Of a DNA stretch of 43,543 nucleotides, positions 21,193-28,577 are shown piece by piece. Within the stretch, counting starts at the first letter, position 1, and each line of letters starts with the position of its first letter. Under the pieces are notes generated by a model. The model was not told the DNA's origin. It made no database searches and was given only the letters and a program-made list of their open reading frames with translations. Source of the stretch: an uncultured Candidatus Saccharibacteria bacterium (lineage in GTDB: Bacteria > Patescibacteriota > Saccharimonadia > Saccharimonadales > Saccharimonadaceae); assembly GCA_947302355.1 (NCBI GenBank), contig CAMYUU010000001.1, forward strand, positions 64,465 through 108,007. Direction: 5' to 3'. Both the position numbers and the translations under genes were made by a program.

Positions 21193-23553
21193 CTAAGGTT
21201 GGACTAGAGTGAATGATTTGCCACTAAGAGGAGCGATGTAGGTTGACGAGGTTTTGCCATATAGTCTAGAAGTAGTATTTGTGATTGGCCCCGTAGTAGT
21301 TCCGTCATTAGTCTTTGGAATAGTAACAGACCAGGTGGTGGCAGAGTAGCCGGCATCTCTGAACATATAGTTCATATTCGTTACACTGGAGGTGTTCCAA
21401 GAAGAGAGATTGAGAGTAAAGGCCGTGGCGGAGTAGCCAGCAGAGCGGAACATATAGGACATATTCGTCACGCTAGCAGTGTTCCAGGAAGAGAGATCTA
21501 GGGTGAAGGTGGTAGCGGAGTAGCCAGCATAGGAGAACATCCAGGCCATGTCCGTTACACTAGAAGTATCCCAGTCAGAAAGATCTAAAGTGAATGTGGT
21601 GGCGGAGTAGCCGGCATAATTGAACATGTCCCTCATATATGTGACACTAGAGGTGTTCCAAGAAGAGAGGTCTAAAGTGAATGTGGTGGCGGAGTAGCCG
21701 GCAGAGGAGAACATACTGCCCATGTCCGTTACACTAGAAGTATCCCAGTCGGAAAGGTCTAAAGTGAATGTGGTGGCGTCGTGTCCGGCAGAGGAGAACA
21801 TACTAACCACATTCGGCGCACTAGACAAATCCCAGTCGGACAAGTCTAAAACAAATGAAGACGCATCGTTGCCAGTGTCAAAAAACATTTGGTACATGCT
21901 CGTCACGCTAGAAGTATTCCAAGAAGAAAGATCTAGAGAGAAGGTGGTGGCGGAGTAGCCAGCGCCTTCGAACATAAAACTCATATCCGTCACGCTGGAA
22001 GTATCCCAAGAAGAAAGGTTGCCAATAGACCAAGTGGTGGCGGAATAGCCGGCATTGTAGAACATGGTTCTCATATCTGTAACACTAGCAGTGTTCCAGG
22101 AAGAGAGATCTAGTGTGAAGGTGGTGGCGGAGTAGCCAGCGGCTTCGAACATAAAACTCATATCCGTTACGCTGGAAGTATCCCAGGAAGAAAGGTTACC
22201 AATAGACCAGGTGATGGCGCTGTAGCCGGCAGAGGAGAACATATAACTCATATCGGTTACATTGGAAGTATCCCAGGAAGAAAGGTCTAGAGTGAAGGTG
22301 GCAGCGGAGGAGCCGGCAGAGGAGAACATATAACTCATATCGGTTACATTGGAAGTATCCCAGGAAGAAAGGTCTAGAGTGAAGGTGGCAGCGGAGGAGC
22401 CGGCAGAGCGGAACATTTGCGACATATTGGTCACGTTAGAAGTATCCCAGTCAGAAATGCCGGTAACCCCGGAAAAGCTGTTAATAAAGTAAAACATAAA
22501 CGATGAGTCAGGAGACAAGAAGACTTGTTCGCCTTCCGTATAGAAATGCATAATACCAGCATCATTGGTATTATCAAAAACGGCATAGATTGGCTTTTTT
22601 GAATCTGAGGTTGAGATAGTGTTTTTCTCACTTGGTATAAAACCAGTTGGAGCGGAAGTCTTAGTGTGGACGGTGATAGTTTTAATATATTCATCATATC
22701 CGTACTCCCAGTCGTAATCACTATCTGGATCAAACTCTGGTGTTATTGTGGTTTCTTCCCCGTTTACAACTGTAGCAGCTAAAGACTTTAGTTTGGCATT
22801 TACAGTTTTGCCAGTATCTAATATAGCAGGGTTAGCAATAGGCTTAGCATGATCGCTAGGATGAACCAAGGTGTAAATCACTTGTCCAGTATAAGTATCT
22901 GCTGGTTGAGTTTTTGAAATATAGGCTGCATAGGTGGTAGTTAGTTTTACTCCGCCAGTAGTGGTAGTCATATCGGTAACAGAGTTTTTATGAGCTACTT
23001 TAGTGTATTCGTTTGGGACTACGTGATACTGAGTAAAACTAGCATCTGCTCCACCAGTAGTATTTGGTGCAGAATCAATAGTTAAGGCATTAGTACCGGT
23101 AGTATCACCAGAATCTTGTGTAATAGCTAGTTTCATAGCCCAGTTAGAAATATCAGGATTACCCGGAGCGGTAGCAAGACCAGTGTCTATTACGGCATTA
23201 TTGGAACTAGTGGTTCCTACTAGTTTATTACTATTAGTTTCTCCTATCTCATTTCCTGTATATCCTGCAGCATAGATAGCAAAGCCATTATTGTCATTAC
23301 AGAAAGTATGAAGAGTGGTAGTACCAATATTAGCTTGATAGGTACCGTTAGTAATATTGGCATTGTGAGAATTCATGCCAGTGCCGCTCATAGTACAGGA
23401 AACTGGGACGGTTATATTAATTTCATCTACTACAGAGTCGTCTGCAGAGACGGTGGAAGAGGATAATACTAGACCCGAAAGAAAGGTAACAGCAATAAGA
23501 CCACCTAGCATGTATCCTAGATTTATATTTAGTTTTCTTTCTTTGCGACTCAT
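21193..23553 (-). CDS. DUF285 (BspA-like) surface protein, downstream paralog
   Basis: A secreted protein of 786 residues. A basic N-terminus and hydrophobic helix end at SSSTVSA, a probable cleavage site. Residues about 45-300 form a domain shared with the upstream paralog (CTMSGTGMNSHNANITNGTY, CNDNNGFAIYAAGYTGN). From about 365 there are 13 repeats of about 29 residues with the DUF285 pattern LSSWDTSNVTDMSYMFSSAG, known from lactobacilli, mycoplasmas and other host-associated bacteria. The last 45 residues have no repeat or anchor. Two neighbouring repeats (about 22240-22400) are almost identical at DNA level, with an 87-base period. AAAGG and a TATAAT box (23574-23579) lie upstream, so it can be expressed apart from the paralog. 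A role in adhesion to the host cell is inference. Confidence 0.85.
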   Translation of the reverse strand: MSRKERKLNINLGYMLGGLIAVTFLSGLVLSSSTVSADDSVVDEINITVPVSCTMSGTGMNSHNANITNGTYQANIGTTTLHTFCNDNNGFAIYAAGYTGNEIGETNSNKLVGTTSSNNAVIDTGLATAPGNPDISNWAMKLAITQDSGDTTGTNALTIDSAPNTTGGADASFTQYHVVPNEYTKVAHKNSVTDMTTTTGGVKLTTTYAAYISKTQPADTYTGQVIYTLVHPSDHAKPIANPAILDTGKTVNAKLKSLAATVVNGEETTITPEFDPDSDYDWEYGYDEYIKTITVHTKTSAPTGFIPSEKNTISTSDSKKPIYAVFDNTNDAGIMHFYTEGEQVFLSPDSSFMFYFINSFSGVTGISDWDTSNVTNMSQMFRSAGSSAATFTLDLSSWDTSNVTDMSYMFSSAGSSAATFTLDLSSWDTSNVTDMSYMFSSAGYSAITWSIGNLSSWDTSSVTDMSFMFEAAGYSATTFTLDLSSWNTASVTDMRTMFYNAGYSATTWSIGNLSSWDTSSVTDMSFMFEGAGYSATTFSLDLSSWNTSSVTSMYQMFFDTGNDASSFVLDLSDWDLSSAPNVVSMFSSAGHDATTFTLDLSDWDTSSVTDMGSMFSSAGYSATTFTLDLSSWNTSSVTYMRDMFNYAGYSATTFTLDLSDWDTSSVTDMAWMFSYAGYSATTFTLDLSSWNTASVTNMSYMFRSAGYSATAFTLNLSSWNTSSVTNMNYMFRDAGYSATTWSVTIPKTNDGTTTGPITNTTSRLYGKTSSTYIAPLSGKSFTLVQP
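22240..22405. repeat. Near-exact tandem 87-base repeats in the DUF285 array
   Basis: The unit around ATATAACTCATATCGGTTAC at 22241 recurs at 22328 with an 87-base period (29 codons) and no visible change over nearly the whole unit. This indicates recent duplication and scope for repeat-number change without loss of frame. Confidence 0.75.
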
Positions 23554-23593: not shown

Positions 23594-26000
23594 TTATGGT
23601 TGGGCTAGAGTGAAGGATTTACCACTAGGTGGCGTGCCGTAGGTTGATGTGGTTTTTCCATAAAGACGGCTAGTAGTGTTACTAATATTATTTCCATTTG
23701 TTGGAGGAATGGTTACGGACCAGCTTGTGGCGGAGTAGCCGGCATTATAGAACATCGTCCAGCCCATATTCGTCACATTAGAAGTATTCCAAGAAGAGAG
23801 ATCCAAGGTGAATGTGGTGGCAGAGTAGCCGGCGTTGTAAAACATACCGTTCATGCTGGTAACACTAGAAGTATTCCAAGAAGAGAGATTGCCAATAGAC
23901 CAGGTGGTGGCGGAGTAGCCAGTATAGTAAAACATTTGTTGCATACTCGTCACACTAGCAGTATTCCAGGAAGAGAGATCCAGAGTGAAGGTAGTAGCGT
24001 TGCGGCCGGCATAGGAGAACATGTAGCTCATATCCGTCACATTAGAAGTATTCCAGGAAGAGAGATTGCCAATAGACCAGGTGGTGGCGGAGTAGCCGGC
24101 ATAGCCGAACATGCTATTCATGTTCGTCACATTAGAAGTGTTCCAATCAGAGATGCCTAGGATGAAGGTGGTGGCGGAGTAGCCGGCACCATAGAACATC
24201 CAGCTCATATCCGTCACATTAGAAGTATTCCAAGAAGAGAGGTTACCAATAGACCAGGTGGTGGCAGAGTAGCCGGCGTTTTTAAACATACCGTACATGC
24301 TGGTAACACTAGAAGTATCCCAAGAAGAGAGGTTACCAATAGACCAGGTGGTGGCGGAGTAGCCGGCATAGCCGAACATGCCACCCATATATGTCACGCT
24401 AGAAGTATCCCAATCAGAAACATAGCTTATATTGAATGTGGTGGCAGAGTAGCCGGCGTTTTTAAACATACCGTACATGCTGGTAACACTAGAAGTATCC
24501 CAAGAAGAGAGGTTACCAATAGACCAGGTGGCGGCGGAGTAGCCGGCATAGCCGAACATGCCGCCCATATCTGTCACGCTAGAAGTATTCCAAGAAGAGA
24601 GATTGCCAATGGACCAGGTGGTGGCATCGAAGCCGGCATAGCCGAACATGTTACTCATGTTCGTCACATTAGAAGTGTTCCAATCAGAGATGTCTAGGAT
24701 GAAGGTGGTGGCGTTCATGCCGGTGCTCCAAAATATCCAGCTCATATCCGTCACATTAGAAGTATCCCAGGAAGAAAGATCTAGGGAGAACGCGGTGGCG
24801 GAGTAGCCGGTTTGGTAGAACATATAACTCATATCTGTTACGTTAGAAGTATCCCAATCAGAAATACCAGAGATTTCGGAAAGATTATAGAATAGATAAA
24901 ACATAAATGATGAATCGGGAGACAAGAAAATTTGTTCTCCCTCGGTATAGAAGTGCATAGCACCCGCATCATTAGTATTATCAAAGACGGCATAAATTGG
25001 TTTGCTGGAAGCAGAAGAAGAGATAGTATTAGTTTCTGCCGGAGTAAAACCGCTAGGGACGGGGGTTTCTAAGTGGACGGTAATGGATTTAATATAGTTA
25101 TCGGCGGCGTCGTACCAATTGTAATCTTCGGGAGTAATAATGGTTTCTTCTCCATTTATAACCGTAGCCGCTAAGGATCTAAGTTTGGAGTTAACAGTTT
25201 TACCAGTATCTAATACTGCAGGATGGGCAACAGGTGCATCGTGGTTGCTTGGATGGATTAGGGTGTAGATTACTTTTCCTGAATAGGTATCAGCTACTTG
25301 AGTTTTAGAAATGTAGGCCGCATAGGTAGTGGTGAGTTTGACTCCACCAGTAGTTGCTGTCATGTCTGTATTTGAGTTCTTATGAGCTACTTTAGTGTAT
25401 TCATTTGGTACTACGTGGTATTGACTAAAACTAGCATTTGCTCCTCCCGATGTATTAGGTGCAGAATCAATAGTAAGGGCGTTAGTACCCATAGTATCTC
25501 CAGAATCTTGAGTAGTAGTTAGTTTCATGGCCCAGTTAGATACATCAGGATTACCGGCAGATGTAGCAATACCAGTATCCATAGTTGCGTTATTGCTAGC
25601 ACTTGTTCCTACTAGTTTATTACTATTAGTTTGTCCTATATCATTTCCAGTATATCCTGCAGCATAAATAGCAAAGCCTTCACTATCATTACAGAAAGCA
25701 TGAAGAGTAGTAGTACCAATATCTGGTGTATAAGTACCATTAACTAAAGTAGCAGTATGAGAGTTCATACCAGTGCCAGACATAGAACAAGAGACTGGGA
25801 CTTTAACGCTAACTTTGTCTACTACATTGTCGTTTGCAGAAACAGTGCTTGATGAGAGGATAAGGCCAGATATAATAGTGATGCTAAGTAAAGCTACTAA
25901 GAATGAATATTCTAGTTTCCATTTAGAGAGAGAGAGAGATTTCTTTGTGGGTTGCTAGGACTCTATTTTTACAACCGCTTGTGGTTTTATTTTTTAGCAT
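23594..26000 (-). CDS. DUF285 (BspA-like) surface protein, apparently phase-OFF at a (CT)7 tract
   Basis: The repeat-bearing frame is open from just after a TAG at 25961 down to 23594 and encodes a signal peptide (KWKLEYSFLVALLSITIISGLILSSSTVSA) joined to VPVSCSMSGTGMNSHT, parallel to the paralog at 21193. This frame has no ATG, GTG or TTG before 25783, which lies after the signal peptide. The only well-placed start is ATG 26000 (AAGGA upstream). It reads MLKNKTTSGCKNRVLATHKE, passes into the (CT)7 tract and stops at TAA right after it. Eight or five CT units would put start and body in one frame, giving about 802 residues. The body has 13 DUF285 repeats. A sequencing error in the tract is the main alternative. 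Confidence 0.75.
25925..25938. repeat. (AG)7/(CT)7 dinucleotide tract at the start of the DUF285 gene
   Basis: Seven AG units on the plus strand, CT on the coding strand, between the ATG at 26000 and the signal peptide codons. Unit number modulo 3 sets the frame: 7 is out, 5 or 8 is in. Slipped-strand change at such tracts is an established phase-variation mechanism. Confidence 0.85.
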
Positions 26001-26068
26001 GACCTTGTAATCCTTAAGCTTAATTAGCTTAATCATATCATAGTGTAAAATAAAATGCTAGTGGATTT

Positions 26069-28350: not shown

Positions 28351-28425
28351 TGGACCGTCGCCAAGCGGTAAGGCACTGGGTTTTGGTCCCAGCATTCGCA
28401 GGTTCGAATCCTGCCGGTCCAGCCA
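28351..28425 (+). tRNA. tRNA-Gln (anticodon TTG)
   Basis: Acceptor TGGACCG pairs with CGGTCCA, followed by G and an encoded CCA. The anticodon arm CTGGG-TTTTGGT-CCCAG gives TTG. The T-arm is CAGG-TTCGAAT-CCTG. The 3' end is followed by two extra copies of its tail (28426-28577). Confidence 0.95.
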
Positions 28426-28577
28426 GCCAAGCTTATCACCTCCAGTAGGTGTTTTTTATTGGGGATTCGGACCTTCGGTGCGAATCCTGCCGGTCCAGCC
28501 AGCCAAGCTTATCACCTCCAGTAGGTGTTTTTTATTGGGGATTCGGACCTTCGGTGCGAATCCTGCCGGTCCAGCCA
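28406..28577 (+). repeat. 76-base tandem duplication carrying the tRNA-Gln 3' end and its terminator
   Basis: The unit starting at 28406 with the tRNA 3' part (GAATCCTGCCGGTCCAGCCA) repeats at 28482 with an exact 76-base period, and the first 20 bases appear a third time at 28558-28577. Each unit also has the small terminator-like hairpin CACCT-ccagt-AGGTG plus six T, and a GATTCG/CGAATC hairpin before the repeated tRNA tail. The copies show no visible differences, so the duplication is recent or maintained. Confidence 0.9.
28437..28457 (+). terminator. Terminator-like hairpin after tRNA-Gln
   Basis: CACCT-CCAGT-AGGTG followed by TTTTTT. The stem is only 5 bp but the U-tract is good. A second identical copy is at 28513-28533. 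Confidence 0.55.

Follow-up and report, generated by a model that had tools for sequence, protein, structure and literature searches.

A (CT)7 tract near the 5′ end of a DUF285 surface-protein gene, found in a 43,543-nt stretch of Saccharibacteria DNA (the window), very probably acts as a reversible translational ON/OFF switch that operates by slipped-strand phase variation. The tract is pure and longer than chance would produce, and changes in its number of units shift the frame between the start codon and the body of the gene, whose main frame downstream of the tract is intact and under purifying selection. Judging from the sequences compared below, the locus is probably one switch within a wider set in Saccharibacteria, whose surface coats would be turned ON and OFF at random.

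Reading frames and encoded protein at the (CT)7 locus

The DUF285 gene has an FtsK gene 69 bp upstream of it and a tandem paralog 41 bp downstream (Table 1). The first-pass annotation of this DNA had described a full signal peptide in the main frame with no start codon preceding it, and the codons bear this out. The main frame is open on the minus strand from a stop at 25957-25955 to position 23594, with about 775 codons from AAA TGG to its stop. It opens with CAA CCC ACA AAG AAA TCT CTC TCT CTC TCT AAA TGG AAA CTA GAA TAT TCA TTC, and before the hydrophobic core of the signal peptide it contains no ATG, GTG or TTG and no other NTG or ATN codon. An alternative start in the main frame was ruled out, as no start codon of any class precedes this core.

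The ATG at 26000 is in another frame, and its leader ORF stops, as had been noted, right after the tract, at the TAA at 25925-25923. This is the OFF allele as assembled, in which the last T of the tract is also the T of the stop codon. A second ATG, at 26036, shares its frame with the one at 26000, so the phase logic is independent of which of them serves. In an in-silico allele series, 2, 5, 8 and 11 CT units gave proteins of 798, 800, 802 and 804 aa, respectively, and every other number gave peptides of 23-32 aa. One unit more or two fewer than in the assembly joins ATG, leader, signal peptide and body into a protein of about 800 aa; the restoration of about 802 residues that had been predicted for n = 8 or n = 5 was reproduced, with 800 aa in the latter case.

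Table 1. Features of the (CT)7 locus and its tandem paralog (positions refer to the window)
Feature	Position	Strand	Basis or remark
(CT)7 tract, proposed slippage site	25925..25938	minus	sequence and in-silico allele series
ATG (26000-25998) and 25-codon leader ORF MLKNKTTSGCKNRVLATHKEISLSL	25923..26000	minus	OFF allele
Shine-Dalgarno-like TAAGGA, 10 nt 5′ of the ATG at 26000	26011..26016	minus	predicted from sequence reading
Extended -10-like element TGaTATGAT	26032..26040	minus	predicted from sequence reading
Weak -35-like TAGCAT, 17-nt spacer to the -10-like element	26055-26060	minus	predicted from sequence reading
Predicted signal peptide KWKLEYSFLVALLSITIISGLILSSSTVSA in the main frame	25835..25924	minus	translation; helix in structure model
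Start-less main frame (signal peptide, conserved N-terminal domain, 13 DUF285 repeats)	23594..25954	minus	
13 DUF285/PARCEL repeats	23704..24856	minus	PF03382; pLDDT >90 over nearly all of the stretch
Tandem DUF285 paralog, 786 aa, ordinary ATG, without repeat tract	21193..23553	minus	

Elsewhere in the window, positions 28351-28577 hold a tRNA-Gln followed by tandem 76-bp repeats, 99% identical, that consist of the 3′ half of the tRNA and a terminator-like sequence.

The main-frame protein matches PF03382 (DUF285; E 1.4e-82) and the PARCEL repeat TIGR02167 (E 1.2e-60), both above the curated cut-offs. The earlier counts of 13 repeats and of 786 residues proved right, the latter for the tandem paralog, which is 75% identical to the main-frame protein over the N-terminal 345 residues and is not switched by the (CT)7 tract. 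The dN/dS was 0.19 against this paralog and ranged from 0.19 to 0.41 across paralogs. The predicted signal peptide, a call that rests on composition and on a helix at residues 3-23 of the structure model, is hydrophobic, ends in SSSTVSA and resembles those of other family members; no lipobox was seen in the DUF285 protein of the locus. In the model (mean pLDDT 87), the N-domain is rich in beta structure and is joined by a long array of repeated strands and turns. No solved structure matched significantly, the best weak hits being pilin-like beta-sandwiches with E 0.1 or worse, and a PDB sequence search with the protein gave no match. The label of putative adhesin is plausible for this protein.

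Repeat tracts in the genome, the gene family and other genes

Chance as the origin of the repeat was rejected, as none of 100 shuffles of the window yielded such a tract. Pattern searches across the 726,768-base genome found it to be the sole CT tract of at least seven units, and all AT tracts of at least eight units fell in two DUF285-gene paralogs, L035 with (AT)11 and L037 with (AT)8 (G000:C5). Both of these AT tracts lie between the ATG and the signal peptide and both are out of frame (OFF); one AT unit fewer or two more restores proteins of 647 to 685 aa. The same searches found no G run of at least 10 and no AC tract of at least six units in this genome. The gene has about 14 paralogs in its genome, and at least three carry such tracts. 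The probability that three out of three tracts would fall at random in about 0.23% of the genome is near 1e-8, an estimate that uses 14 family starts and a 120-nt target, both rounded.

Loss of mismatch repair destabilises dinucleotide repeats. No match to MutS and no above-cut-off match to a MutL-type ATPase domain was found in this genome (96.5% complete), and control genomes did match both.

The N-terminal domain of the protein is present in 58 of the 100 genomes sampled from its genus, where 5 to 20 copies are common. Relatives that have names belong to Candidatus Saccharibacteria, and many come from the gut or rumen of sheep, goat or yak. What follows the common N-domain varies among members: DUF285 repeats in some, Fib_succ_major or Flg_new domains in others. 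A long mono- or dinucleotide tract occurs in 13 of the 119 distinct 5′ regions of the family (among them L001, first fetched by its CT tract, the same gene also being found by protein search as L002 and L032) versus none of 1100 control windows of equal length drawn from the same loci (Fisher p = 4e-14).

Some of these tracts are within the coding start and others are in promoters. Poly-G runs between TTG-type -35 and -10 boxes were found in L013 (G12), L061 (G8) and L118 (G8), with total spacers of 17, and in L081 (G19), with a total spacer of 26; L013 and L061 share the spacer of 17 despite G runs that are four apart. In three paralogs of one genome, TTG and TACAAT are separated by 8, 10 and 12 AT units, and the flanks are near-equal. 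Short 4-mer repeats, also flagged in the scan for tracts, were left out of the analysis. Where an intragenic tract has a clear upstream ATG, 7 of 19 were in frame and 12 out (a tally that includes L035 and leaves out L158 and L214, which the script could not resolve). This is close to the one third expected under free slippage with random phase, and unlike ordinary genes. Genes with an ATG 32 nt before an AT tract are ON at n = 10 (L067, L235 and L256) and OFF at n = 8 (L037) and n = 11 (L035). The in-frame leader of L150 (G111), ALASHKNSSLSLSLS, is ON at n = 11 and resembles the LATHKEISLSL part of the leader at the (CT)7 locus. Two further family genes, L160 (G160:C11) and L147 (G101:C8), are preceded by a short leader ORF that contains a CT tract; in L160 the stop of the leader shares bases with the main start (ATGA), and the number of units could switch translational coupling there.

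The (CT)7 locus is represented by one genome per species; at equivalent sites in related species and paralogs, n differed. The most direct evidence of length change comes from a second genus of the taxonomic family: loci L274 and L275 are 99.4% identical over 3008 nt, and their only gap is (CT)14 versus (CT)12, shortly before a type IV prepilin gene. Altogether, the contingency-locus layout claimed in the first-pass annotation is supported by the out-of-frame AT tracts of the paralogs, the ON and OFF tracts at equivalent sites of other species, the confinement of tracts to 5′ ends, the undetected MutS and this near-identical pair of loci.

Tracts were also observed beside genes of other types. 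The prepilins of L274 (G322:C1:141102) and L275 (G315:C1:563435) carry GFTIVELLIV..., and a third prepilin, L276, has (CT)13; from these sequences, a phase-variable pilin is possible in Saccharibacteria. Seven paralogs of an unrelated surface protein (G098; L151 and L214-L219) have CT tracts of 16 to 22 nt in the signal-peptide region, in mixed phases, one of the four with a clear start being in frame. Genes for EcoRI-type adenine methyltransferases (L152, L156, L162 and L164) contain GA tracts of 15, 19, 27 and 17 nt in a similar place, PF13651 being confirmed for L152 and L162, and two HsdS-like genes (L153 and L161; PF01420) start at CT/GA tracts. The methyltransferase and HsdS-like genes are candidates for phase-variable DNA methylation in this genus. 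A FemAB-like gene, L148 (G052:C21), also starts at a CT/GA tract and is possibly a phase-variable cell-wall enzyme.

Alternative explanations for the out-of-frame allele

The assembled allele is OFF, as would be a young pseudogene that had lost its start through a frameshift, the CT tract being merely the site of an indel. Decay does happen in the family: the paralog at G000:C3:56749-57392 (L226) is frameshifted between residues 66 and 67 without any repeat, and is likely a true pseudogene. However, we consider decay unlikely at the (CT)7 locus because its frame of about 775 codons is still open and its dN/dS against the tandem paralog is low. Three paralogs of one genome are broken alike, each at a dinucleotide tract of a kind seen nowhere else there, and the corresponding tracts of relatives can be in frame; both observations speak against decay. 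Random phase would leave all three tracts of this genome OFF about 30% of the time, and decay or an assembly bias would do so as well. Seven dinucleotide units is also short for a contingency tract. A sequencing or assembly miscount, with a real gene constitutively in frame at n = 8 or n = 5, deserves mention here, since repeats are error-prone and the count is based on one assembly. Nevertheless, a dinucleotide run of 15 nt is short beside ordinary short reads, and the out-of-frame state appears again in two paralogs and in about two thirds of the intragenic tracts, from independent assemblies. Miscounting is on these grounds very unlikely, and even an in-frame majority allele would leave a slippage-prone tract in place.

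Alternatively, ribosomal or transcriptional slippage on the n = 7 allele might yield the full protein, with the DNA unchanged. The stop is directly in the repeat, and low-level recoding is compatible with the sequence. The +1 move required here, from CUC to UCU, re-pairs poorly, unlike at known +1 slip sites of the prfB type. Relatives with in-frame tracts do without recoding, which moreover cannot explain the promoter-spacer repeats of the same family. Given the poor re-pairing and these promoter repeats, we lend this explanation the least credence of all. An alternative genetic code was rejected, as the blocking stop is TAA; we know of no code in Patescibacteria that reassigns it.

Proposed mechanism, implications and known systems

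Slipped-strand mispairing during replication is the established cause of such length changes in other bacteria. For the proposed phase-variable switch, polymerase slippage on the CT tract at replication would cause a lineage to gain or lose units. At n = 2 mod 3 (2, 5, 8, 11), the DUF285 surface protein would be made and exported, and at any other n, including the assembled n = 7, only a short peptide would be made and the gene would be silent. Several tract-bearing paralogs would provide each cell with a differing combination of surface proteins. The bacterium probably lives attached to other bacteria, and the likely benefit would be varied attachment to these hosts or escape from phages or host defences.

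On a broader scale, it appears rather likely that ruminant-gut Saccharibacteria possess genome-wide combinatorial SSR phase variation, in which many surface paralogs would be switched independently at coding or promoter-spacer tracts, along with phase-variable DNA methyltransferases, HsdS subunits and, in another genus, a type IV prepilin. An episymbiont of bacteria would thus vary its surface to counter bacterial hosts and phages, much as pathogens of animals do to counter immunity. This bears on the way in which Saccharibacteria recognise and retain the bacteria that host them. If true, cells of a single strain could differ in host range, in partner switching and in phage escape, and an individual MAG or isolate genome would give a wrong picture of surface-gene expression. 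Gene callers also assign wrong starts to OFF genes like the present one, or overlook them.

The mechanism is known, but we found no report of it for this phylum: a literature search that covered few subscription papers and no preprints, made for phase variation or slipped-strand repeats in Saccharibacteria, Patescibacteria or CPR, turned up nothing beyond the Gracilibacterium repeat gene discussed below. Among the closest parallels are intragenic SSR contingency genes in Haemophilus, Neisseria and Campylobacter (PMC11868660; Campylobacter phasome, PMC6321876). As in those, a pure short repeat lies between the start codon and the body of a surface-protein gene, a change in unit number shifts the frame, several independent loci occur per genome, and phase-variable restriction-modification genes, here candidates, are associated. 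The present case differs in its CT and AT dinucleotides, in its ultrasmall Patescibacterium and in the undetected MutS, and its switching is predicted from sequence.

Promoter-spacer repeats are found as poly-G in N. meningitidis porA and as (TA)n in H. influenzae hifA/hifB (PMC3899988). Similarly, in homologues of the DUF285 gene from other species, poly-G or (AT)n separates a -35-like from a -10-like box, the spacer being exactly 17 nt in several, whereas the (CT)7 locus uses a coding tract. With the DUF285/PARCEL surface proteins of ruminant mycoplasmas (PMC2996958, PMC10634449), the locus shares the PF03382/TIGR02167 repeat family, many copies per small genome and a surface location, which is predicted here. 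However, the Saccharibacterial genes are distinguished by a conserved N-terminal domain of their own, and in many relatives Fib_succ_major or Flg_new domains take the place of DUF285. Finally, a hypervariable repeat surface gene of a Gracilibacterium (PMC6851277) likewise combines Patescibacteria with repeat variation in a predicted surface protein. Its repeats encode an in-frame tripeptide and bring about no ON/OFF switching, whereas the (CT)n units at the DUF285 locus would switch the gene ON and OFF.
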